64,000 nucleotides of DNA from Citricoccus sp. K5 (GTDB lineage: Bacteria > Actinomycetota > Actinomycetes > Actinomycetales > Micrococcaceae): NCBI RefSeq assembly GCF_902506195.1, contig NZ_LR732817.1, positions 1,068,909 through 1,132,908 of the forward strand, in the 5' to 3' direction. Positions 4,101 through 62,834 of this stretch are shown here, in pieces; the first letter of the stretch is position 1, and the number at the start of each line of letters is the position of its first letter. Below the pieces are notes generated by a model, which was given only the letters and a program-made list of their open reading frames with translations, was not told the origin of the DNA and did not search any database. The position numbers and the translations under genes are program-made.

Positions 4101-5357
4101 TCACTGGTCGCGGATCTCGCTGTAGTGGCCTGCGAAGTCGGCTTGCACGATGTCCGGGCGGCCGTGTCGGTTCTTGGCCACGATGATCTCCAACTCGCCG
4201 CGCTTGCCAGGGTCCACGGTGTCCCGGTGCAGGAGGATCACCACGTCTGAATCCTGCTCAATAGCTCCTGACTCACGGAGGTCATTGAGCATCGGTGGCC
4301 GCTTGTCGGTGGCGCTGGCTCGGTTGAGCTGGGAGAGCATGACCACGGGCACGTGCATATCCATGGCCAGTAGCTTCAACTGTCGGGACATGTCAGCCAC
4401 GAACTCGTGTCGTGCGCGCTTGTCCTGCGGTGCCTGTGCCATGAGCTGCAAGTAGTCCACAACGACGCCGGCCAGCGGTGCACGTCGGTGGACGTTGCGA
4501 GCGAACCTGCGAATCTCGGTGATGGTCACCTGGGCTGACTTGGACACGGCCAGCGGGTAGCGGTAACTGGCAGACCAGTCCGCAATCCGCTGGTAGTCCT
4601 CGGGGGTCAGGTTCTCCGGGTTCATGAGCCGGTCCATGGGCACGTGCCGCTGGTGGGCAAGGATGCGCTTGTTCACGTCGTCCTGGCTCATCTCCAGCGA
4701 GAGCATGGCCACTCCGCCCTGCTGAGCGAGGGAGAGGGCCAACTGCACACCCATCACCGACTTGCCCACACCAGGTCGCGCCCCGATGGTGTAGACCGCA
4801 CCTGGCCTTAGCCCGCCGATGACATCGTTCAGGCCCTCCCATGGCGTCGGCACGAATGATGTCCCGGAGTCGAAGCCATCAACCGTGTTCTGAATGGTCT
4901 CCCATACGAACTGCACCGGCTCGTGTCGGACGGTTCTACCTGAGCGATCGAGCTTCTGCCGTGCGTCCTCCACGATGGCGTCAATGTCGCCAGGCTGGTC
5001 GGCCATGGATGCGATTGCACGTCCGGCTTCTGCGAGCCTGCGTCTGGTGGCGTGCTCGGCGACGATCTGTGCGTAGTAGTTCGCCGACGAGCCGGACGGT
5101 GCCGCCTCCGACGCCATCGGGATTAGCGTCGGATCGGTTGGCCGTTCACTGTTTCGGAGTTCATGCGAGATGGTGACCGCATCGACGGGCTTGCCGTCTC
5201 GGGCCATGGTGGTGATGGTGCGCCATGCGAACTCTAGGGACGGGTCACGGAAGTCTCCCGGTTCGAAGTCCAGTTCATCGAGTCCTCGGCCACTCGCGTT
5301 GATGGCCGCGCCGAGTAGGGCTAGTTCTGCGTGCTCGATGCTCTCAGTGCTGCCCAT
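4101..5357 (-). CDS. Replicative DnaB-type DNA helicase (phage)
   Basis: A 418-residue hexameric helicase of the DnaB/RecA-core family. The N-terminal DnaB domain (about 1-115) is followed by an ATPase core with Walker A GARPGVGKS at 192-200 and a Walker B-like VVDYLQLM near 300. It unwinds DNA at the phage replication fork. The start overlaps the 3' end of the replication initiator gene by 37 bp, as expected for an initiator/helicase pair; AAGGGG precedes the ATG. A terminator follows. Confidence 0.95.
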   Translation of the reverse strand: MGSTESIEHAELALLGAAINASGRGLDELDFEPGDFRDPSLEFAWRTITTMARDGKPVDAVTISHELRNSERPTDPTLIPMASEAAPSGSSANYYAQIVAEHATRRRLAEAGRAIASMADQPGDIDAIVEDARQKLDRSGRTVRHEPVQFVWETIQNTVDGFDSGTSFVPTPWEGLNDVIGGLRPGAVYTIGARPGVGKSVMGVQLALSLAQQGGVAMLSLEMSQDDVNKRILAHQRHVPMDRLMNPENLTPEDYQRIADWSASYRYPLAVSKSAQVTITEIRRFARNVHRRAPLAGVVVDYLQLMAQAPQDKRARHEFVADMSRQLKLLAMDMHVPVVMLSQLNRASATDKRPPMLNDLRESGAIEQDSDVVILLHRDTVDPGKRGELEIIVAKNRHGRPDIVQADFAGHYSEIRDQ

Positions 5358-6067
5358 GGGTCAGCCCCTTCCTGATTGTCGGTGTAGTCGTCTTCCCATC
5401 GCTCGGCGTTGAGCCATGATCCTGGGAGTGCGATGTAGGTCTTCTCTTTGCCTTGGACGGATGCCTTGTAGGCGGTCAGGCCTCGGTGCAGAGTTTCGAT
5501 GTCGGTCTTCTTCAGGGCCGCCTTGAAAGCTTTTCTTGCTGCCCCCTTGGCTTCCTTGCGCGGGTAGCTCGAATACCAAGCGTCGAAGAGTGCGTCGCTA
5601 TCGTCTTTCGGCGCAGCCGGTGGACGAGTGTTCTTCCCATCCCTTCCCATCCCATCCCTTCCTAGGGGGAGTTCGGGTGAGTCTCGCTGTGGCTCAGTGA
5701 AACTCACCGGAGTTTCGATGGGGGCGAGGGAGTCTTGCTGAGCACAGGCGGGGCACCTTGTTTTCCAACGAGGGTCGATCTTCTGATGGTCCTCGAAGCG
5801 TCTGACTAGGAGGTATGTTCTTCCGTCACCATCGGATACGCGAACAACACGACCCTGCTCCATCACTTCCGCGAGCAGTTCGTCAATATCCACGTTGTCC
5901 ATCGGAAGGATCTGGAGCTTCAATTTCATTGCATCATCGGCCACATGACCGTGATCGCAGAGCGTGAAGTTCCACATTCCGATATAGAGCAGTCGAGCGA
6001 ATGGTGAAAGCTTCACCATGTTCCCGTCTGTCCAAAAGTCAGGTTTGATCGTTCGGATTCTCGCCAC
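5321..6067 (-). CDS. Phage replication initiation / helicase-loader-like protein
   Basis: A 248-residue protein starting ARIRTIKPDFWTDG, typical of actinophage replication organiser proteins with an N-terminal winged helix. A low-complexity middle (about 120-150) precedes a C-terminal domain (FDAWYSSYPRKEAKGAARKAFKAAL) of the DnaD/DnaT-like kind. It probably binds the phage origin and recruits the DnaB-type helicase encoded directly downstream; this is inferred from family and synteny. GTG start at 6067 with GAGAGG upstream. Confidence 0.8.
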   Translation of the reverse strand: MARIRTIKPDFWTDGNMVKLSPFARLLYIGMWNFTLCDHGHVADDAMKLKLQILPMDNVDIDELLAEVMEQGRVVRVSDGDGRTYLLVRRFEDHQKIDPRWKTRCPACAQQDSLAPIETPVSFTEPQRDSPELPLGRDGMGRDGKNTRPPAAPKDDSDALFDAWYSSYPRKEAKGAARKAFKAALKKTDIETLHRGLTAYKASVQGKEKTYIALPGSWLNAERWEDDYTDNQEGADPWAALRASSTQN

Positions 6068-6245
6068 TGTCGTCCTCTCTCAACATTGCTTTCACGTCCT
6101 CCACTGGCACGCCGTACAGTCCCGCGATGCCTTCCACGCTCGACCCGCACCTGACTGCTGCGTGGGCGTAGTAGGCGCGCCGATCCCGGTACCCCTCCGT
6201 GTCAGATGCGGCGAGCGTGAGGAACTGGGTGGCCAGGTCACTCAC
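6039..6245 (-). CDS. Small phage protein, possible HTH
   Basis: A 68-residue protein. The start is taken as GTG at 6245, overlapping the previous stop as GTGA; the longer open frame to 6320 runs through the neighbouring gene. The segment VRCGSSVEGIAGLYGVPVEDVKAML looks like a helix-turn-helix. Its 3' end overlaps the replication gene by 29 bp. Confidence 0.6.
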   Translation of the reverse strand: MSDLATQFLTLAASDTEGYRDRRAYYAHAAVRCGSSVEGIAGLYGVPVEDVKAMLREDDSGENPNDQT

Positions 6246-6553
6246 GGCGTCCCTCCGTCCGCAATGGCCTCTGCCACGCACTTCAGCCGCGTTCTGGCCT
6301 TGTCTGCGGCTCTCCTCCATGCGTGCGGCTTCTCGCCGGGGAACGTGTCGCAGGACCGGATATCGGCGTCTACAACGTCACGGGCCGCGTCGAGGAGCTT
6401 GTGCATGGAACCGGATGTCGGCGGCTTGGCAACCAGTGGCGCGATGAAAGCGGCAAGGTCCAGCGCGGTTGAGTCCTCGGAGGCGCCGGAATAGGTTTCC
6501 GCCCAATTGAGGGCGGCTGCGGCGAGTTGGTCTGAATCGATTTTCGTCAGCAT
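6242..6553 (-). CDS. Phage protein, unknown function
   Basis: A 103-residue, mostly helical protein. GGAGAA precedes the ATG at 6553, which lies 20 bp after a terminator hairpin. It is coupled to the next gene by a GTGA overlap. No recognised domain. Confidence 0.62.
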   Translation of the reverse strand: MLTKIDSDQLAAAALNWAETYSGASEDSTALDLAAFIAPLVAKPPTSGSMHKLLDAARDVVDADIRSCDTFPGEKPHAWRRAADKARTRLKCVAEAIADGGTP

Positions 6554-6572
6554 GTGCGTTCTCCAATAACAA

Positions 6573-6596
6573 GGGCCGCCCCGTGTGGAGCGGCCC
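6573..6596 (-). terminator. Intrinsic terminator after the RusA gene
   Basis: A GGGCCGC / GCGGCCC stem followed leftward by TTGTTATT. The ribosome site of the next gene starts inside the U-rich tail. Confidence 0.78.
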
Positions 6597-6644
6597 GGAT
6601 GTGGGTTTCAATGTGTGGTGCAGATACTCAATGTTTCGAAGTGA

Positions 6645-7043
6645 TCAGTCGCAGTCAGGCCCATCAGGTAGCGGCGTGATGGTGAGGACGATGCAGGCTT
6701 GGTCGCGCTTCTCGCCGGCTCTCATGTCGGGTCCGGTCAGATGTGCGTTGTCGTCGTCGGGGAGTAGTCCATAGTCGGTTACGAGCCCGTCGATGACCGC
6801 CTTGATGGTCGGGTACAGGTTGGCCACGTCGTAGCTGCGTCCGGTGGTCTTGTGGACGGTCGCGGTGATGTGGGCGCGGGTCATGAGGGGGAGTATCTGC
6901 GCGTGCGCGAGTGCTCTTGTCCGCTCCCGCCAGTTGCGCGTGAGTGCCGCTTTCGGTGCCCAGTGCATCCGGTCATTCGCGTTGATCCACTGAGCCTTGT
7001 TCCCGGCGTCACAAGGCGCGGGAATTGTTAATGTGAGCGTCAT
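6645..7043 (-). CDS. RusA-family Holliday junction resolvase
   Basis: A 132-residue protein. The segment DVANLYPTIKAVIDGLVTDYGLLPDDDNAHL carries the acidic pattern of RusA active sites (D-N-xx-K-xx-x-D...DDD). RusA-type nucleases resolve branched recombination or replication intermediates, here before packaging. The ATG at 7043 overlaps the dUTPase stop as ATGA. A terminator follows. Confidence 0.82.
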   Translation of the reverse strand: MTLTLTIPAPCDAGNKAQWINANDRMHWAPKAALTRNWRERTRALAHAQILPLMTRAHITATVHKTTGRSYDVANLYPTIKAVIDGLVTDYGLLPDDDNAHLTGPDMRAGEKRDQACIVLTITPLPDGPDCD

Positions 7044-7462
7044 TTCCCCGTGCTCCCCATCGCGCCGTGCCCACGCTCAGTTCCCGGCAGCTCGGCCACT
7101 TCGACAACTCCGGGCGTGGCAATCGGCAGGATGACCAGTTGCGCGATCCGGTCACCTGCCTTTGCCGTCCATCCGTTGCGCGAGTGGTTCATGAGGATCA
7201 CCTGGACCTCGCCGCGATAGTCGGCGTCGATCACTCCACCAGCGGGCACTACACCGTCACGTGCGGCCAGTCCTGAGCGCCCCTGGATCTGCCCGTAGTA
7301 GCCGGCTGGGATGGCCACTGCAATGCCAGTGGGGACGATTGCGCGGCCAGATGCGTACAGGTGCACGTCATTCAGCGCGTACAGGTCCAGGCCTGCATCG
7401 GTGGGGTGTGCGCGGGTGGGGAGTGTTGCGGCCGGGTCGGTGCGCTTTACTTTGAGGTTCAA
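7040..7462 (-). CDS. dut: dUTP diphosphatase (dUTPase)
   Basis: A 140-residue trimeric-type dUTPase with the five family motifs visible: DAGLDLYA, GRSGLAARDG, GVIDADYRGEV, GDRIAQLVI and the C-terminal arm ERGHGAMGSTG. It hydrolyses dUTP to dUMP and keeps uracil out of phage DNA. The start is taken as TTG at 7462 with AAGGAG 6 nt upstream; this gives the usual family length, whereas the longer frame to 7588 overlaps a separate small gene. That TTG ribosome site overlaps the stop of the upstream microgene. Confidence 0.93.
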   Translation of the reverse strand: MNLKVKRTDPAATLPTRAHPTDAGLDLYALNDVHLYASGRAIVPTGIAVAIPAGYYGQIQGRSGLAARDGVVPAGGVIDADYRGEVQVILMNHSRNGWTAKAGDRIAQLVILPIATPGVVEVAELPGTERGHGAMGSTGK

Positions 7463-7472
7463 TGCGTTCTCC

Positions 7473-7607
7473 TTATGCGGCTGTGGATAACTCTGTGGAT
7501 TCGATGCGGTGCAGTATGGGGCAGCACGCACACTTGCCGGCAAACATCCATGACCCGCACCCGTGGCATCTGGTGATCTGCCGGTCAAGGCGTGCGAGCT
7601 TGGTCAT
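7473..7607 (-). CDS. 44-residue zinc-knuckle microprotein
   Basis: Starts MTKLARLDRQITRCHGCGSW and carries CHGC...CACC, a four-Cys metal-binding pattern. The ATG at 7607 overlaps the WhiB stop as ATGA, with AAGGAGG 4 nt upstream, and its stop sits in the ribosome site of the dUTPase gene. This embedded position makes the longer upstream dUTPase frame unlikely. Confidence 0.68.
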   Translation of the reverse strand: MTKLARLDRQITRCHGCGSWMFAGKCACCPILHRIESTELSTAA

Positions 7608-7885
7608 GCGGCCTCCTTCAGTCGCGCCATGGCCAGTCTCAATACCGCCTCGTCTGCACGCTCCTGGGGTGACATGCCGCCCCAGACCCCGAACCTGTCA
7701 GCCCGCCGTGCGTCTCCCTCGAAGTCCAGTGCGGCTTCCAGGCAGGCATCGATAACAGGGCAGGTCTGGCAGAGAGCGCGGGCGATTGGCGCGGTACCAC
7801 CTGGCGCCGGGAACCATTGCTCGGGGTCCTGCCTGCACGGGGTGAGCACTGCGGCGTCAGTGGTGTCATCCATGAGGTAGGTCAT
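7604..7885 (-). CDS. WhiB-family transcriptional regulator (phage)
   Basis: A 92-residue protein with the WhiB cysteine set C17, C39, C42, C48 and the GVWGGMSPQER motif. WhiB proteins bind an iron-sulfur cluster and act on the primary sigma factor; phage versions can repress host WhiB targets (WhiB of phage TM4 is the known case). The start at 7885 is fixed by an ATGA overlap with the previous gene. Confidence 0.9.
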   Translation of the reverse strand: MTYLMDDTTDAAVLTPCRQDPEQWFPAPGGTAPIARALCQTCPVIDACLEAALDFEGDARRADRFGVWGGMSPQERADEAVLRLAMARLKEAA

Positions 7886-8067
7886 CTCAGCCACGCCTTG
7901 GCGAACTCGATGCGCGCCGACTCCTCGCGCTCTTCCTTGATGCGGGTAGCTTCCTCGCGGAGGTGGTGTCTGCACGCTCGGCCGTGGCTGCATACCCCAA
8001 ACGGGTTACGGCAGCAGGCACCGTTGCAGTCAGCCGCGTGATAGGCGGCGGCTTGCTTGTTGCTCAT
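7882..8067 (-). CDS. Small Cys/His-rich phage protein
   Basis: A 61-residue protein. The first half contains DCNGACCRNPFGVCSHG and RACRHH, a likely zinc or Fe-S binding site; the second half is a charged helix. It is coupled on both sides by ATGA overlaps (8064-8067 and 7882-7885), so it is made together with DUF3310 and WhiB proteins. AAGGAG lies before the ATG. Confidence 0.7.
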   Translation of the reverse strand: MSNKQAAAYHAADCNGACCRNPFGVCSHGRACRHHLREEATRIKEEREESARIEFAKAWLR

Positions 8068-8426
8068 GACATCTCCTTGTCAAGGTGCTCGGGGTGCTCG
8101 GATAGGTCACGGATGAGCACGGACGCCTTGTAGAGGTCGCCGCGTGCAATGCATCCGAGGACGTAGCGGCGGCGCGTCATGGGCGCAGCCCCGTCCGCAA
8201 TGAGTGGCACATCGCGAATGGGCCCCTGGCCGTTCAGCCCGGCGTCCGTGATGTACCAGAGCGCCTTCCTCAGGTCCTCGGCGGCGTCACCCTTGGACCC
8301 GGCCCGCCATACGTACTTGAATGCGTTACCGAGCGTGAATGACATCTGGCGGGTGTACTCGATGCACTCACCCTTGATGCCGGGAACGCCTGCATAGTGT
8401 GGCGGGTGGTTGATGAGGTCGGTCAT
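8064..8426 (-). CDS. DUF3310 phage protein
   Basis: A 120-residue protein. The N-terminal part (INHPPHYAGVPGIKGECIEY...FKYVWRAGSKGDAAEDLRKALWYI) matches the DUF3310 nucleotide-metabolism-associated family found widely in phages. Its biochemical role is not established. The start at 8426 is set by an ATGA overlap with the redoxin gene. Confidence 0.82.
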   Translation of the reverse strand: MTDLINHPPHYAGVPGIKGECIEYTRQMSFTLGNAFKYVWRAGSKGDAAEDLRKALWYITDAGLNGQGPIRDVPLIADGAAPMTRRRYVLGCIARGDLYKASVLIRDLSEHPEHLDKEMS

Positions 8427-8698
8427 GCCGCCTTCTCCTCTGGCCGGCAGTACTCCTCGATCAGGTTCGGGCGGTATCCGGACCATGACGATTGCGATCC
8501 GTCGCCGTGCTGGACGATGACGACGGGCATCTCCTGGTATCCCTCGGCGCGGAGTGCTTCGAGATCCTGCATGGATTCAACGGTGGGCAGGTCCACGGCT
8601 CTCATGGCATACGTGGCACCGAGTGAGTCGAGCTTGCGTTTGCTGGCCCAGCACATGCGGCAGTTGTCCTTGGTGTAAAGCGTGATGGTCTTGCTCAT
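8423..8698 (-). CDS. NrdH-like glutaredoxin
   Basis: A 91-residue thioredoxin-fold protein with redox motif CRMC at residues 13-16 and the MPVVIV cis-Pro segment. NrdH redoxins supply electrons to ribonucleotide reductase; a phage copy would raise dNTP supply. No reductase gene is seen in this window. GGAGCAG precedes the ATG, and a strong terminator lies just upstream. Confidence 0.86.
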   Translation of the reverse strand: MSKTITLYTKDNCRMCWASKRKLDSLGATYAMRAVDLPTVESMQDLEALRAEGYQEMPVVIVQHGDGSQSSWSGYRPNLIEEYCRPEEKAA

Positions 8699-8718
8699 TA
8701 CTGCTCCTGGGATACAAA

Positions 8719-8751
8719 GCGGCGGCCGTCCGTGAATGGGACGACCGCCGC
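8719..8751 (-). terminator. Intrinsic terminator before the redoxin gene
   Basis: A 13-nt near-perfect stem (GCGGCGGCCGTCC against GGACGaCCGCCGC) with a 7-nt loop, followed leftward by TTTGTATC. Confidence 0.78.
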
Positions 8752-8764
8752 GAGGGTGGGTACG

Positions 8765-8791
8765 AAAAAGCCCCCACCAATTGGCGAGGGC
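8765..8791 (-). terminator. Intrinsic terminator after the 86-residue gene
   Basis: GCCC / GGGC outer stem plus a CCAATTGG inner palindrome, followed leftward by five T residues. Together with 8719-8751 it forms a tandem terminator pair. Confidence 0.82.
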
Positions 8792-8813
8792 TTCGTTATA
8801 TTTTGGTTGCCGG

Positions 8814-9074
8814 TTATGGGGTGTCAGGAATCCATTCCGCAGTGATCTTCTCTACCAGCATGTCAAACGCCCTACCGCGTTGAAGTTCGACTAACTCCTT
8901 TGGGTGCAGCTTCACGGAGAGCACCCGTCGTGGCGTGCTGGTCGAGTTGATTGCCTGGAAAACAATCGCGTCGGGTTGCCGCTCGATCGCTACCTTGTCA
9001 ATATCAAGGCCCGCATCACGGAGGCCTTCTAGAATGTTCAGCAGATCGGCGTCAGATAGCTCGTACGTTTTCAT
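8814..9074 (-). CDS. Phage protein, unknown function
   Basis: An 86-residue, helix-rich acidic protein (starts MKTYELSDADLLNILEGLRD). It lies directly downstream of the SSB gene and ends at a tandem terminator. No known family seen. Confidence 0.65.
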   Translation of the reverse strand: MKTYELSDADLLNILEGLRDAGLDIDKVAIERQPDAIVFQAINSTSTPRRVLSVKLHPKELVELQRGRAFDMLVEKITAEWIPDTP

Positions 9075-9087
9075 AGTTCACATCCTC

Positions 9088-9588
9088 TCAGAACGGCGGC
9101 TGTCCATCGTTACCCGGCGTCTCCCAGTTCCCAGCCGCATTCCCACTACCGCCCCACACGTCACCCTGCCCACTGTTGCCAGCGGGTGCGGTGTTGAAGC
9201 CGGAGTTGGAGTTGGTGCCGTTGCTCCGGTTGGACTTGGTGACCTTGGCCGTGGCGTACTTCAGGGAGGGGCCGATTTCGTGCACGTCAAGTTCGGTGCT
9301 CGTACGCTTCTGCCCGTCCTTCTCGTAGGCGCGCATCTTCAACGCACCCTGAGCAATGACCCGCGTACCCTTCGTTAGCGATTCCGCGACTTGCTCAGCG
9401 GCCTCACGCCAGATGGAGGCGCGCAGGAACAATGTCTCGCCGTCCTTCCATTCATTCGACTGCTTGTCGAACGTGCGCGGGGTGGACGCAATGGTGAAGT
9501 TCGCGACTGCCGCCCCGGATGGGGTGAACCTAAGTTCCGGATCGCTCGTCAGGTTGCCTACTACGGTGATAATCGTTTCGCCTGCCAT
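9088..9588 (-). CDS. ssb: Single-stranded DNA-binding protein (phage)
   Basis: A 166-residue SSB: an OB fold in residues 1-110 ([23 protein letters not shown]...), a Gly/Asn/Ser-rich linker and the acidic tip DGQPPF, which in bacterial SSBs recruits partner proteins. It coats single-stranded DNA during phage replication and recombination. AAGGAG precedes the ATG. It differs from the chromosomal SSB paralogue at 53550, which lacks this tip. Confidence 0.95.
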
Positions 9589-55910: not shown

Positions 55911-56954
55911 TCAGATGGTCGCGAGCCGGGCGTTCTGCAGTGTGTCCCCATAGTGCTTCCGCACGTCCATCTTGCGCTCCAGGTCGGCGATGACCGCGAC
56001 GGCGAAGTCCTCCCCGTAGAGACTCTGGCAGGAACCCAGCCCGCCCGGGGAGAACACGTTGATCTCCATGAGCTTGTCGCCCACGATGTCCAGGCCGACC
56101 AGGAACATCCCGTCGGACACCAGCTTGGGCCGGACGGCCTCGACGAGGTGCAGCATCTCGTCCGTGAGGTCAACCCGTTCGGCGTTTCCGCCGGCCGACA
56201 TGTTCGACCGGACATCGTTGGACGTGTTCCGGCGGCGGAATGCGGCGGTCTTCCCGTTGACCGTCAGGGGCCGGCCGTTCAGGAGGAAGAGACGCACATC
56301 GCCGTTCTCGGCCTCCGGCAGGTACTCCTGGGCCACGATGTAGCCGTCCCGGCCGATGGCCTCGATGATCTGGGAGAGGTTGGGCGACTCCCTGCGGTTC
56401 ACCAGGAACACCCCCGACCCGCCTGACCCCTGTAACGGCTTGAGCACCGCCTTGCCGCCCATGTCATCGATGAAGTCCGAGATCATGGATTCGTCCCGGG
56501 AGATCAGCGTGCGAGGACGTACTACCTCGGGGAAATGCTGGAAGTAGGCCTTGGACAGCGCGTTGGCCAAGGTGTGGGGGTCGTTGGCCACCAGCACCCC
56601 GGAGTCGGTGATCAGTTGGCCGAAGGCGACGGCGGCGGTGGGCGCCCAGGGCCGGTCCACGGCGTCGTCGGCCGGGTCATTGCGCAGTAGCACCACATCG
56701 AAGTCGTTCACGGCGACCTGCCGCTCCGTCGCCGGTCGCTGGATGTCCTGTAGGTAACGCTCCAGGGAGCGGTAATTCTTGTCCGCCCCCCCGCGGGCCA
56801 GCACGGACAGGGTGCCGTCGGGCTCATAGGCGAAGTCGCCCGTCCCGGTCAGCAGGACTTCATGGCCGGCCCGGGTGGCTGCCAGGGCCAGTCGGTTGGT
56901 CGTGTAGTGGGCCTTCTCCGTGGCGACGTCGTTGACAACGAATCCGATTTTCAT
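55911..56954 (-). CDS. Glutathione-synthetase-like ATP-grasp ligase
   Basis: A 347-residue ATP-grasp protein (MKIGFVVNDVATEKAHYTTN; KPLQGSGGSGVFLVNR; DVRLFLLNGRPL; MEINVFSPGG). It resembles GshB, which joins an amino acid to a carboxylate. No gshA is present and Actinobacteria normally use mycothiol, so a glutathione role is doubtful. It is the last gene of an operon with an amidohydrolase and a DUF1704 protein. GGAG precedes the ATG. Confidence 0.85.
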   Translation of the reverse strand: MKIGFVVNDVATEKAHYTTNRLALAATRAGHEVLLTGTGDFAYEPDGTLSVLARGGADKNYRSLERYLQDIQRPATERQVAVNDFDVVLLRNDPADDAVDRPWAPTAAVAFGQLITDSGVLVANDPHTLANALSKAYFQHFPEVVRPRTLISRDESMISDFIDDMGGKAVLKPLQGSGGSGVFLVNRRESPNLSQIIEAIGRDGYIVAQEYLPEAENGDVRLFLLNGRPLTVNGKTAAFRRRNTSNDVRSNMSAGGNAERVDLTDEMLHLVEAVRPKLVSDGMFLVGLDIVGDKLMEINVFSPGGLGSCQSLYGEDFAVAVIADLERKMDVRKHYGDTLQNARLATI

Positions 56955-57045
56955 ACGTGCTCCGATCGTTCGGGTGCCGGTGGGCGCGGTGCGGGGGTGG
57001 TGGCGGCCGGCGAGAAGTGATGAGCGCCGGGTCAGCGGAATGTGC

Positions 57046-58317
57046 TCAGGCGTTGACGAACGCCGTGGGGTCGTCCAATGCGGCAGCCCGGCCGAGTCTG
57101 GCCGTCGCGTCCTGGTCGTCCAGCCACCGAGGCTGGAGCAGCGCCGGCTCCAGGACCCCTCGCTCCTGGAGATCGTCGATGAGCGGCAGATCCTCCAGGG
57201 AGAACTTGCCCAACAGCAGCAGGTCGAGGCTGCCTCCCCGGCGCAGGTGCCCCAGGAGATCGAGCATGCCACGCAAGTAGATCGCGTCCTTGGTCAACCC
57301 CCCGGCGCGGTACGCACGCATGGTGGTGGTGAAGGCGGACGAGGCAGGGACACCGTCCGCCACGAGGGCCGAGTGCGCTTCGGCAAAGGTGGCCCCGGTG
57401 ACCATGCGGTGCACTGTCAGTACCCGGGAGGCCAGCTGCCGCAGCCGGAAGGCCGTGAGCCCGCCGCAGGCAACCTCCGCGAGCACGGCCAGGCCCTCCT
57501 GCGTCTCGTCATAGCGGGCCAGCCCGGTGCCGAGGATCTTGATGGGCTGGGCGGAGCCGTTGAAGTGGGTGACCAGGTGGGTCCCGACTTCATGCTGGAG
57601 CAACGCGTGGGCGCGGGCCTTTCGGACCTTGGATTCGGGTCCCAGGAGCAGTGAGTTCCCCGAGACCATCACCCCGGACACGTCGTCGCGGATCTCGGCG
57701 TGCATCTCGATGTCCGGGTCCTGCTGGCGGTAGTGGTCTATTTCCTCCCGGGCGAGGTCGAGGAATTCCTTCGCCCCGAGGCTACCGGCCGACGTCGATT
57801 CCGTGGCCGTGACCGTTTCAAGGATCAACTCGGCCGAGCGCCGCAGGTCCGGAAGGATGGCCCCGTAGAGTTCGATACTCAGCGGCATGAAGTCCTCGGT
57901 GTCACGGGCTGCCAGCATGTCGAGCTGCAGGGACATCTCCTTGTGCTTGTTGCGCAGCAGGGTGCCCAGCACCGTATCGTCCACCAAGTGGATCGGTACG
58001 TCCTCCAGCACCCGCTTGAGCACCTCGGGGTCGTCCACCACGTCGCGGTAGACGAACTCCGGCAACTCGCCGGTGGCGAGGAATTCGGTGCGTGCCTGCT
58101 CCACGTTCATCGGTGTGATGTCCAGCAGGAACCGAATGGAGCCGGACAGCAACGCCAACTCATGGTCGATCGCCCGGTCCCGGGTTGAGAGCCCGACGAC
58201 GGCCCGAGGGTCGTCGATTCGTGTGCCGTCCTTCCGCTTGACCCCGGTGCGCTGGCCTTCAGCCTGATTGCGCCCGGTCTTCTTGTCCTCGGAGCTGGTG
58301 GGCTTCTTGGCACTCAT
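57046..58317 (-). CDS. DUF1704 (QEGLA-motif) putative metallo-carboxypeptidase
   Basis: A 423-residue protein. Zinc motif HEVGTH near residue 240 and QEGLAV near 275 define DUF1704, called flavohaemoglobin expression-modulating QEGLA protein in bacteria. Its eukaryotic members (MATCAP) remove the C-terminal tyrosine of tubulin. The ATG overlaps the upstream amidohydrolase stop as ATGA. Its bacterial substrate is unknown; the ATP-grasp gene 91 bp downstream suggests linked ligation and cleavage of a small unit. Confidence 0.85.
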   Translation of the reverse strand: MSAKKPTSSEDKKTGRNQAEGQRTGVKRKDGTRIDDPRAVVGLSTRDRAIDHELALLSGSIRFLLDITPMNVEQARTEFLATGELPEFVYRDVVDDPEVLKRVLEDVPIHLVDDTVLGTLLRNKHKEMSLQLDMLAARDTEDFMPLSIELYGAILPDLRRSAELILETVTATESTSAGSLGAKEFLDLAREEIDHYRQQDPDIEMHAEIRDDVSGVMVSGNSLLLGPESKVRKARAHALLQHEVGTHLVTHFNGSAQPIKILGTGLARYDETQEGLAVLAEVACGGLTAFRLRQLASRVLTVHRMVTGATFAEAHSALVADGVPASSAFTTTMRAYRAGGLTKDAIYLRGMLDLLGHLRRGGSLDLLLLGKFSLEDLPLIDDLQERGVLEPALLQPRWLDDQDATARLGRAAALDDPTAFVNA

Positions 58318-59156
58318 GGTGTCGGCACCTCGACCTCCCTCAGCGCGGCGGTGACGGCCGGGACGGTGCGTGCCAAGGCGTCCGCCAGTTGCGCCAAGTG
58401 CTCCTCGTCGACGTCTCCGGTCCACTCGTCCATGAAGGTCTTCTTGAACTCCAGGGCCAGGACGCAGGCGGTGTCCGGGTACTGCCGGTGGGCCCAGCGG
58501 CCCTCGTTCTGGCCCCAGAACCGGACGTTCTCGCGAACATCAAGCCTGCGTCCCGTGGCCGGGATGACCTCGGTGGACATCGACTCGATGAAGGCGTCCA
58601 CCACCGGGTTCCAGGGTTCGCGGTCCAGGGATCCGGTCCCGACGTTCACGTCGGGGTTCCCCTCCTGGGGTGCCGGGCCGGCGTCGGGACCGTCCCGGCG
58701 GTGGTTGTAGCTGTGCAGGTCATAGACCACGAAGGGTCCCCGGGCGGCCATCGGGGCGATGCGGTGCGCCAGCTCCTCGTACCAGGCGTCGTGGACCCGC
58801 CGGCTCCGCTCGGCCACGTCGTCCGGCAATTGGCCGTCCCTCCAGACGTCGAGGCCCCAGGAGTCATCCGGGTCCAGGTACACGGCGGTGTCGCGTGCGC
58901 GGTTGAGATCGGCTTCGAACCGGGAACGGTGCATGACCATGCCCGAGTCCAGTCCCGAGCCGATCCGGTCCGTATGCGGGTCCTCCTCGCGGTAGCGGGT
59001 GGCCTCGTCCAGCACCATCAGGTCCCGGACCTCAGGGCGCAGGTCGTGGCCGGCGTGGACCGCCGTGAAGACGATCTGGCCGTCCCAGGGGCCGAGCACC
59101 GTCAGGAGATCGGGGTTCCCGGAACCGTTCGGGGTCGTCAGGGTGTCGTCGTCCAT
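58314..59156 (-). CDS. N-formylglutamate amidohydrolase-like protein
   Basis: A 280-residue protein of the FGase fold (FTAVHAGHDL, EEDPHTDRIG, VVYDLHSYNHRR, LALEFKKTFMDEW). No histidine-degradation genes are nearby, so the classical role in that pathway is unlikely. The ATG at 59156 has TACGTT 6 nt upstream, indicating a leaderless mRNA and the operon promoter. Coupled to DUF1704 by ATGA. Confidence 0.82.
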   Translation of the reverse strand: MDDDTLTTPNGSGNPDLLTVLGPWDGQIVFTAVHAGHDLRPEVRDLMVLDEATRYREEDPHTDRIGSGLDSGMVMHRSRFEADLNRARDTAVYLDPDDSWGLDVWRDGQLPDDVAERSRRVHDAWYEELAHRIAPMAARGPFVVYDLHSYNHRRDGPDAGPAPQEGNPDVNVGTGSLDREPWNPVVDAFIESMSTEVIPATGRRLDVRENVRFWGQNEGRWAHRQYPDTACVLALEFKKTFMDEWTGDVDEEHLAQLADALARTVPAVTAALREVEVPTP

Positions 59157-60394: not shown

Positions 60395-61129
60395 ATGTCC
60401 TCCTCACCCGACGATCCGTTCCGTCCCGACTCCACGTCCACCCGAAGCCCGGCCGGCCCGGAACTGCATCTGGAGGACCTGGAGGCGGCCAAGGACCTCG
60501 AACGGTACGCCACACGGGCCAGGACCATGGCGGACACGGGCATGCGTCTCCAGGTGGCCGGCAACGTGCTCGCCTCCTGGGTCTCCGTGCTCCACCCCCG
60601 GGGACTGGGGGACCGCGTTCCGGTGGCCTTGGGCCTGCGGACAGTCCGGTTGGTGGAGGGCCGGCATGACGGGATCGATGCGGTCTATGCCCTGTCCTCC
60701 GTGCTGGAGCGCCTGGCCCGCATGGCCGCCACGGGATCCACGGCCTTCACGCTGCCTCCGGCGCCCGAGAGCGCCCCGTGGACGGCCGTGACCCCGCCCC
60801 GGGGCGGATGGACGCCGGTGGCCACCGTGGAGGATGGCGAACTCCAGCAGATCGCCCGGGACGGGATCCGAGAGCTGGCCGACGCACTGCCCCAGGACCC
60901 GGGGGCCTCCATGGTCGCCCAGGCTCGCGCCGCGGTCTGGGGGCGGCTGTTGGGAGGCTCATCGGCGGAGCCCGGTGACGGCTTCCTGCCGGCCGGAGCG
61001 GCCTTCGCGGCCCACGGTCTGGGCTTCCTCAGCCCGCAGGGTACGACGGCGGTCCACACCTCGGGTCCCTGGGTGCGCCTCTCGAACGCGGCCGGGTACG
61101 TGCTCTGCCGTCAGCCGATGCTGCTCTAG
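60395..61129 (+). CDS. Conserved protein, unknown function
   Basis: A 244-residue soluble protein, Ala/Gly-rich, with a helical middle ([31 protein letters not shown]). I recognise no family. GACAAT lies 7 nt before the ATG at 60395, so leaderless initiation there is likely; an ATG at 60386 overlaps that box. Its TAG stop and the stop of the convergent fusion gene share CTAG. Confidence 0.65.
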
Positions 61130-62211
61130 GCCGAGTTCACCATCGAGTGGGCCGCCCGCTCCAGGTAGTCCCAGAGGGTCTCCTCCAGCAACGGTGCCAA
61201 GTCGAGGGAATCCACGGCTGCCCGCATGTGCCGCAACCAGGTGTCCCGGGCCGCGAAGTCCACGGTATAGGGCGCGTGCCGCATCCGCAGCCGAGGATGG
61301 CCGCGTTGTTCGCTGTATGTCTTCGGCCCGCCCCAGTACTGCTCGAGGAACATCCGCAGCCGTTCCTCGGCCGGGCCGAGATCCTCTTCGGGGTACATGG
61401 CCCTGAACTCGGGGTCCGCCGCGACCTGCTCGTAGAACACCCTGGCCAGCTTCACGAAGGTCTCGTGCCCGCCGACCTGCTCGTAGAAGCTCGCGTTCTC
61501 CGGCTGGGCTTCCGCATCAACACGAGCGCCAGCTGCTCCACTTCCACCGGCAGCGGCGCCAGCACCTCCACCGGCGCTGGCAGCGGTGCCGGACGCGGGA
61601 GCCATCACCTGCGGCGGTCGCTGGCCGGTCGACGCGGTGGGCCGGTCCTGCAGGCCGGTCACCTGGCTGGGGGCCTTGCCCTGGCGCGGCTTCAGCACCG
61701 CGATGGGCGCGCCCAGGCGGCTGCCGAACTCCGGCAGGTTCTGGTTCTGATGGCGGCGCACCTGCTGAGGCTTGATGGTGACGGGGAAGCTGACGGATCG
61801 GGCGATGAAGCACTGCTCATGGGCCTTCGCGTGCAGCCCGTCCGCGGTGCCCCGCTGCTCCTCGTCGGCGAGCCAGATCTCCGGGACCAGGGTCGCGGAG
61901 GTGATCCGGCCGCCGTCGTGGTCATGGGTCAGCACACACTCGGCGCGCACGGAGGCGCCGGTCACGACCACCTCGGCCTGCGTGGCGGCCTGGAGGTAGG
62001 ACAGCAGGTGGCACTCGGCGAGGGCCGCGAGCAGGAGCTGTTCGGGGTTCCACCGGGAGTCGCTCCCGTGGAAGGCCCGCGCTGCGGAGCCGTTGAGTTC
62101 GCCGGGGCCTTCGGCGCGGACCACGAGCTCACGGCCGTAGTCCTTGTATCCGGAGGTGCCGGAGCCCCGGTTTCCGGTCCATTCGGCATGCAGGGAGAAG
62201 GAGTGTTCCAC
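61126..62211 (-). CDS. OsmC peroxidase-like domain fused to a group II truncated haemoglobin
   Basis: A 361-residue two-domain protein. Residues 1-175 are OsmC-like with the two conserved Cys (C67 in [12 protein letters not shown] and C134 in AHEQCFIA). A Gly/Ala/Pro linker (about 176-240) leads to a GlbO-type globin (241-361) with proximal His H312 (RLRMRHAPY) and Trp325 (G8). OsmC proteins reduce organic peroxides; trHbO binds O2 or NO. GTG start at 62211 with TACCGT 7 nt upstream (leaderless); earlier in-frame codons up to 62520 lie in the divergent promoter region. Confidence 0.9.
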
Positions 62212-62318
62212 GTCCTCTACGGTACCGCCCGCGGCGTCGCAGCCGTGCGTCGGCTCCGCCACGGTCCGCAGTGGTGGTGTCTGGGGTGACGCCGCTGGCC
62301 GGACCGCCCTCGTCAGCC

Positions 62319-62324
62319 TAGACT
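62319..62324 (+). promoter_or_regulatory. Probable -10 box of the molybdenum cofactor operon
   Basis: TAGACT, 22 nt before the mog start, matching the hexamer upstream of rnpB, gap and def. Confidence 0.55.
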
Positions 62325-62345
62325 CGAGAGACGCTGGGAGGTTTG

Positions 62346-62834
62346 ATGCCACACATCCACATCTTGACCGTCTCCGATCGGGCCCATGCGGGTCAGGCTC
62401 CGGATACGGCGGGGCCGCGCGCTCTCGAGCTGGCGGCCCAGTATCTGAGCGAGTGGACGGCAGACGGGGCCGTGGTGGCGGACGGGGTTGAATCCGTCCG
62501 GTCCGGTGTCCGGGCGGCACGGAGCGACGGAGCTGACGTGGTCATCACGCTGGGCGGGACCGGGGTGTCCCCGCGAGACCTGACGCCGGAGGCGATGGAC
62601 GGGCTCCTCGACACGGAGTTGCCCGGCATCGCCGAGATGCTGCGCCGTGAGGGTGCCGAACAGACCCCCACCGCGGCCCTGGGACGCGGACGCGCCGGGA
62701 TCATCGGCCGGACCCTCGTCGTGAACCTCCCCGGCTCCCTGCGTGCCACGGAGCAGGGCATTCCACTGCTCGCTCCGGTGCTGCCGCACCTGCTCGCCCA
62801 ACTTGGTGGAGGCGGCGACCATGCCCGCCACTGA
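62346..62834 (+). CDS. MogA/MoaB-family molybdopterin adenylyltransferase
   Basis: A 162-residue protein ([42 protein letters not shown]). It adenylylates molybdopterin before molybdenum insertion. GGGAGG lies 4 nt before the ATG. First gene of the Moco operon. Confidence 0.94.

Follow-up and report, generated by a model that had tools for sequence, protein, structure and literature searches.

What might an amidohydrolase, a relative of the animal tubulin-trimming enzyme MATCAP, and an ATP-grasp ligase do together in a bacterial operon? Three such genes lie on the minus strand in a 64,000-nucleotide stretch of the genome of Citricoccus sp. K5 (contig NZ_LR732817.1, positions 1,068,909 to 1,132,908), which we call the window. 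A preliminary description of this DNA proposed that the three enzymes add an amino acid to, and remove it from, the C-terminus of a peptide or protein. We find that the three genes are conserved together in two phyla, and that they are sometimes reordered or fused. We also find that the ligase resembles glutathione synthase (GshB) in sequence, rather than tubulin tyrosine ligase (TTL). The genes likely serve a shared pathway, and we see about an even chance that they form a three-enzyme module for one substrate, most likely a small acidic peptide or an N-acyl-glutamyl compound but not glutathione. The features are (positions within the window):

58314-59156, minus strand: N-formylglutamate amidohydrolase (FGase)-type amidohydrolase P0001, 280 amino acids (open reading frame ends; Pfam PF05013)
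57046-58317, minus strand: MATCAP/DUF1704 metallocarboxypeptidase homologue P0002, 423 amino acids (open reading frame ends; PF08014)
55911-56954, minus strand: GshB-like ATP-grasp ligase P0003, 347 amino acids, subfamily PRK12458 (PF02955; NF009110)
59168-59163, minus strand: TACGTT, the predicted -10 element of a putative leaderless promoter, 6 nucleotides before the ATG at 59156 (from sequence alone)

The stop codon of the FGase gene and the start codon of the DUF1704 gene overlap by 4 bp (ATGA-type), and 91 bp separate the DUF1704 gene from the ligase gene, so the genes are coupled or closely spaced, as had been described. The predicted -10 element is also where it was said to be. TAC[G/C/T]TT is present with the same spacing in four of the five named loci that we took to be from the same genus (L028, L030, L031, and L032), and the fifth (L029) has TAGCGT at 7 nucleotides. 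Outside of those five loci, just 2 of the 74 loci that we examined have TANNNT at 4-9 nucleotides before a candidate start codon. Because the element recurs within the genus and is rare elsewhere, the putative leaderless promoter is a genus-level feature.

To see how often the genes are linked, we scanned one genome per species (84,980 species), found 489 relatives, and kept the best 80. (All 80 are from Actinomycetota, so this sample leans towards close relatives.) The closest named relative of P0002 among these 80 is from Citricoccus zhacaiensis (96% identity). In 78 of the 80 loci, the FGase, DUF1704, and ligase genes are in the same order and on the same strand. As for the exceptions, the contig ends before the FGase in L085, and the genes are in pieces and there is no match to the ligase in L103. 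Among the 78, the FGase match is merely partial in L091 and L095, and a second FGase match lies upstream in L054 and L068. We measured the gap that separates the DUF1704 and ligase genes from the ends of their matches, rather than from the stop and start codons; 49 of the 78 loci have a gap of 6-9 bp, and 20 have one of over 30 bp. Among open reading frames of at least 30 amino acids within 4 kb of the 80 loci, no further gene recurred in more than 22 of them, and we found neither a precursor of a graspetide or other ribosomally synthesized and post-translationally modified peptide nor any other fourth gene. (Larger clusters of flanking reading frames were antisense or other-frame shadows of the three genes themselves.)

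We also checked samples of genomes. DUF1704 is present in 9 of 198 Actinomycetota genomes (including the window's own). Of 120 genomes from the window's family, 6 have it. Those six are all from the window's genus, of which seven members were sampled (again including the window's own), and all six carry the complete trio. Across the sample of the phylum, we found the trio in the window's genome and in G183, while G046 and G032 have a DUF1704-ligase pair. The ligase subfamily has matches at E ≤ 0.001 in 31 of the 198 genomes, mostly weak: four exceed 300 bits and two exceed the curated cut-off. All four of the genomes with over 300 bits are among the nine with DUF1704 (the chance of this overlap is 2e-6), and in all four, the ligase adjoins DUF1704. 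FGases of any kind (PF05013) are present in 17 of the 198 genomes. In G046, a gene for a GNAT acetyltransferase (L018:1321-1884) lies directly upstream of the DUF1704-ligase pair, in the FGase's expected place.

To look at another phylum, we turned to plasmids, where DUF1704 has matches in 127 records. We examined the surroundings in 14 records, of which 10 were chosen from DUF1704 matches, two came from using the Vibrio fusion protein (described below) as a query, and two (L125 and L129) came from a search with the ligase, which biases those two towards finding a ligase. In nine of the 14 records, the trio is present as three separate genes: Aminobacter (L108), Shinella (L111 and L129), Pararhizobium (L117), Sinorhizobium meliloti (L112 and L113), Sinorhizobium sp. 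C101 (L125), S. medicae (L110, where the FGase open reading frame is 1.8 kb away), and "Roseateles" XES5 (L116, whose record is flagged UNVERIFIED_ORG and whose surroundings match Shinella). The L113 trio is carried on pSymB of S. meliloti 2011, a laboratory strain. A plasmid of Phyllobacterium zundukense (L109) has a decayed trio, with the FGase and the ligase in several fragments. In two Photobacterium loci (L120 and L121), the ligase comes first and is followed by a single FGase::DUF1704 protein of 665 or 662 amino acids; in L120, the longest reading of the fused protein overlaps the ligase by 23 bp. Linkage thus extends beyond close relatives, to other Actinomycetota and to rhizobial replicons of Pseudomonadota. 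The preliminary description would have been refuted if linkage were confined to close relatives, and it passes this test.

Could the three genes be unrelated and be neighbors by chance or by hitch-hiking? Each of the families does occur without the others, but the conserved linkage in two phyla, the changed gene order, the gene fusion, and the overlap or short spacing already contradict this explanation, and we give it almost no credence. Rather, the conserved order in two phyla, the overlap, the reordering in Photobacterium, and the fusion of the two hydrolases are why we consider a shared pathway to be likely.

To understand what the pathway might do, we examined each protein. P0002 belongs to the MATCAP family (PF08014, E = 3.5e-79; 266.8 bits against a cut-off of 27). 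A profile of 29 relatives aligns to human MATCAP with E = 8.9e-13, and the alignment pairs HEVGTH (residues 242-247) with HEIGTH, QEGLA (273-277) with EEGLA, and TKDAIYLRG (342-350) with SKDQVYLDG. The HExxxH metal motif and the glutamate that is the probable third ligand (in EEG or QEG) are both present in P0002. An AlphaFold model of P0002 has a mean predicted local distance difference test score (pLDDT) of 89.3, and its five best matches in the PDB are all human MATCAP (Foldseek E of 1.8e-8 to 3.3e-8; TMt of 0.62-0.71). The weaker structural matches are to a DUF885 protein, to carboxypeptidases that we take to be M32-type, and to ACE. H242, E243, H247, E274, R334, R337, K343, D344, and Y347 are conserved in 80 of 80 DUF1704 proteins. 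(HEVGT and ETQEG doubled as search patterns, so only the conservation from R334 to Y347 is unbiased.) E243 aligns with the catalytic E281 of MATCAP, as identified in PMC10499314. As described there, MATCAP/TMCP enzymes are metal-dependent, require E281, accept any of several residues at the C-terminus, and can shorten chains of glutamate. Given the profile match, the model, and this published behavior, carboxypeptidase activity for P0002 is a fair inference. Overall, the kinship of DUF1704 with MATCAP that was noted earlier is borne out by a predicted MATCAP fold and by the catalytic residues.

P0002 also differs from the animal enzymes TMCP1-2 (KIAA0895L and KIAA0895). Although it shares their fold and the HExxxH, (E/Q)EGLA, and (T/S)KDxxYL motifs, it has just 21-22% identity in the structural match, it is bacterial, and its gene shares an operon with those of a ligase and an amidohydrolase. 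Other bacterial forms are fused to an FGase or have an extra N-terminal part. Specifically, the DUF1704 proteins of rhizobia and G183 (L108, L111, L112, L116, L117, and L020) begin with about 240 additional amino acids that include a conserved GxRLHIDRxLPFL motif. The three of these that we scanned (L108, L111, and L020) have no Pfam match in this part. We considered that the rhizobial N-terminal part might be a decayed FGase, but a profile comparison gave a probability of 1.8%. TIGR02421 (QEGLA), with a cut-off of 338.65 bits, includes the proteins from L108, L111, L114, and L115 but not P0002 (298.6 bits) or the protein from L020 (322.7 bits).

P0001 belongs to the FGase family (PF05013, E = 1.2e-21; 78.3 bits against a cut-off of 28.9). 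The best matches to its AlphaFold model (mean pLDDT 91.6) are the N-formylglutamate amidohydrolases 2q7s and 2odf, which points to an FGase fold. Later matches include carboxypeptidases such as 4b6z (M14) and the poly-gamma-glutamate hydrolase 3a9l. We compared P0001 to nine FGases from other genomes (ten loci were fetched, and L160 yielded no match). H34, E57, D146, and H148 are common to all of them, and H34, E57, and H148 are a candidate zinc site. Other conserved FGase positions differ in P0001, which has conserved motifs of its own, such as HSYN and EFKK. P0001 is the only PF05013 gene that we found in its genome, and it scores just 22.8 bits against the model for HutG (TIGR02017, cut-off 278.75 bits). 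We therefore reject histidine degradation as the role of P0001, in agreement with the preliminary description (we made no search for other hut genes). The FGase domain of the Vibrio fusion protein shares 29% identity with P0001 across 247 amino acids. This fusion, which lacks an adjoining ligase, has a tyrosine at the conserved H148, while both of the Photobacterium fusions, which have a ligase, retain the histidine; this is a single case.

The ligase is where we part from the preliminary description, which compared it to TTL. P0003 carries both the GshB N-terminal domain and the ATP-grasp domain (GSH-S_ATP, PF02955, E = 3.8e-49), and it aligns to E. coli GshB (1gsa) over residues 2-310 of 347 (E = 1.1e-30). 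RimK-type ligases align more weakly. When we compared a profile of the ligase to solved structures, the only chains with E ≤ 1e-5 were GshB or RimK-type (6 distinct sequences), and TTL was not among them. Across 79 of 79 ligases, 17 of the 19 GshB-type positions that we checked are invariant. A ligase beside a carboxypeptidase does make a cycle of addition and removal plausible, as proposed earlier, but the ligase's sequence does not support a likeness to TTL.

If the ligase resembles GshB, might it be a glutathione synthase, with the other two enzymes recycling gamma-glutamyl peptides? NCBI's name for PRK12458 is "glutathione synthetase," and the PRK12458 cluster was counted as GshB in PMC3462692. 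Also, the statement in the preliminary description that gshA is absent is correct for the window but not for the genome, which encodes a homologue of GCS2 glutamate--cysteine ligase (NF010042, 513 bits against a cut-off of 427). And the Photobacterium ligase passes a GshB model, PRK05246 (284.6 bits against 272), as well as PRK12458 (480 bits), although it fails TIGR01380. However, P0003 passes PRK12458 (439.9 bits, cut-off 408) and fails both of the GshB models (186 bits against 299.05 for TIGR01380; 203 against 272 for PRK05246). The true GshBs of E. coli, Sinorhizobium, and Paracoccus have the reverse pattern, with 465, 416, and 389 bits for TIGR01380 and 222, 224, and 195 bits for PRK12458. 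P0003 is further set apart from GshB by five residues inserted ahead of the conserved RSN/RGN stretch and by SPGGLGS in place of SPTCIRE. (The ligases of the DUF1704-ligase pairs in G046 and G032, at 331-350 bits, are below the cut-off for PRK12458.)

The distribution of these genes also argues against glutathione. GCS2 is present in 119 of the 120 sampled genomes from the family, with or without the trio, while DUF1704 is in just 6 of them. GCS2 is also present in our control, Corynebacterium glutamicum, which makes mycothiol. The window's genome encodes MshC of mycothiol synthesis (561 bits against a cut-off of 485). Because GCS2 is nearly universal in the family, the trio is rare, and MshC is present, the trio does not track glutathione. 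In addition, Sinorhizobium sp. C101 has a GshB that passes TIGR01380 on pC101a and the trio on another replicon, pC101b. From the ligase's scores and from this distribution, we consider it very unlikely that the trio makes glutathione, and the earlier view that glutathione is a poor fit holds up.

The preliminary description's own proposal was reversible editing of a protein's C-terminus, much as tubulin is tyrosinated or glutamylated, but in bacteria. In the boldest form of this idea, a protein or a peptide signal would gain a terminal amino acid from the ligase and lose it to the MATCAP-type enzyme, which in some species is fused to the FGase. RimK-type ligases modify a protein tail, and they are remote relatives of P0003. 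The homology to MATCAP and the retained catalytic residues also fit, as does the ability of TMCP enzymes to trim several C-terminal residues and to shorten glutamate chains, as reported in PMC10499314. Yet the ligase's alignment to GshB over residues 2-310, with no TTL chain at E ≤ 1e-5, suggests that a small peptide fits better than a tyrosine-ending protein tail. Also, the FGase is from a small-molecule family, and among the 80 loci, no gene that might encode the target is repeatedly found in the 4 kb on either side of the trio. We consider editing of a protein end to be quite unlikely.

Another possibility is salvage or degradation. The hydrolases would strip an external peptide or a peptide from turnover (for instance, an N-acyl peptide), and the ligase would rebuild a product of the cell's own from the core, so the ligase would not be the reverse of the hydrolases. 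Two of the three enzymes are hydrolases, and those are the two that are fused; also, the Vibrio fusion (L114) has no adjoining ligase. On the other hand, we saw no recurrent transporter or additional catabolic gene in the 4 kb flanking the trio at the 80 Actinomycetota loci, where the best flanking cluster is present in 22. We think that salvage is unlikely.

That leaves a shared module for a small compound. The families of the ligase and the FGase, and the fact that no other gene recurs nearby, suggest that the substrate is a small acidic peptide or an N-acyl-glutamyl compound. Several observations weigh against this reading. First, each of the genes is also found without the others, so the three need not always act together. 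DUF1704 has neither partner adjoining in 5 of the 9 genomes that carry it (although one of these, L019, is at a contig end, where the partners could be cut off), and neither G046 nor G032 has any match to the FGase family at E ≤ 0.001. Among the plasmid records, the Vibrio locus has the FGase::DUF1704 fusion without an adjoining ligase, a Pseudoalteromonas locus (L115) has DUF1704 alone, and three Ensifer/Sinorhizobium loci have the ligase alone. Second, the pairwise distances of the three proteins are correlated (r = 0.80, 0.86, and 0.80; n = 76, leaving out L085, L091, L095, and L103), but this requires nothing beyond common descent. Third, the pairing of hydrolase and ligase may have arisen twice, judging from where the Photobacterium ligase falls in the trees, apart from the other trio ligases. 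In a midpoint-rooted tree, it lies on the GshB side. With RimK-like proteins as the outgroup, it lies outside of true GshB plus the trio ligases (support 87/83), but this outgroup was poor (most of its rows were short) and the placement of the branch stayed unsure. Fourth, as discussed below, the salt response of the genes in Photobacterium is ill-suited to a role in making an osmolyte. The lone ligases of the Ensifer/Sinorhizobium replicons (L127, L128, and L130) are of the PRK12458 type and group with the rhizobial trio ligases.

If the three genes do form a module for a small compound, we infer that they share a substrate and act roughly as follows. The ATP-grasp enzyme would activate a carboxylate with ATP and join it to an amine, probably of an amino acid, in the manner of GshB and RimK. 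The MATCAP-type enzyme would take off a residue from the C-terminal side, with Glu243 as the general base and with His242, His247, and probably Glu274 as the metal ligands. The FGase-type enzyme would cut an amide on the other side, either N-acyl or gamma-glutamyl. Together, they might make and unmake the compound, or trim and rebuild it, possibly in response to salt or stress.

A hint of salt or stress control comes from one transcriptome. In Photobacterium damselae, genes annotated as "GshB" (RS17020) and "QEGLA" (RS17025) were up 38.4- and 27.5-fold at 1% NaCl relative to 3% NaCl, according to PMC10308900. Their tag numbers suggest that the two genes adjoin. The induction was at low salt, which is not what we would expect if the module made an osmolyte.

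The arrangement has precedents. In the operon for N-acetylglutaminylglutamine amide (NAGGN) and in RimABK, an ATP-grasp ligase adjoins a peptidase in a small operon, as it does here. To our knowledge, those systems have peptidases from other families and no FGase. We also take COG3930, the family of VV2_1203 from Vibrio vulnificus, to be DUF1704. VV2_1203 and VV2_1204 (glutathione synthetase) are among the clade-specific genes in PMC3091676. Our searches of the open-access literature, which did not cover subscription journals, found no title or abstract, among the papers listed, that described the trio.

More broadly, bacterial homologues of MATCAP, which are filed under an uninformative name, gain two frequent partners, and these offer a route to the substrate. 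Genes that are labelled "glutathione synthetase" via PRK12458 may make something else, with consequences for how glutathione metabolism is annotated in rhizobia and in bacteria that use mycothiol. If the cycle did act on a protein's end, it would link the editing of animal tubulin to a bacterial system, and the trio would be a prokaryotic counterpart, and perhaps a source, of the animal tubulin-trimming branch.

We considered two other ideas about these loci. GGAAC-N14..18-GTT is the motif of an alphaproteobacterial stress promoter, and it is present at just 1 of 7 rhizobial loci, so we rejected such a promoter for the trio. We also looked for carriage by phages. The sole match to P0002 in a phage collection (L164, Pseudomonas phage Y1) is in a record marked "UNVERIFIED," and it sits among genes that, by eye, look like those of a bacterial chromosome, so it is probably not phage-borne. 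No relative was found in viral contigs with patterns from P0002 alone.

Elsewhere in the window, 4101-9588 (minus strand) has genes for a DnaB-type helicase and SSB amid many short leftward frames, which suggests that a prophage or another mobile element lies at the left end of the window. And at 61126-62520 (minus strand), a single frame of 464 amino acids encodes both an OsmC domain (PF02566) and a truncated globin (PF01152). One match spans both domains in 9 of 10 loci from the genus, which represent 6 distinct genomes (4 are present twice); in the other locus (L025), only the OsmC part was matched.

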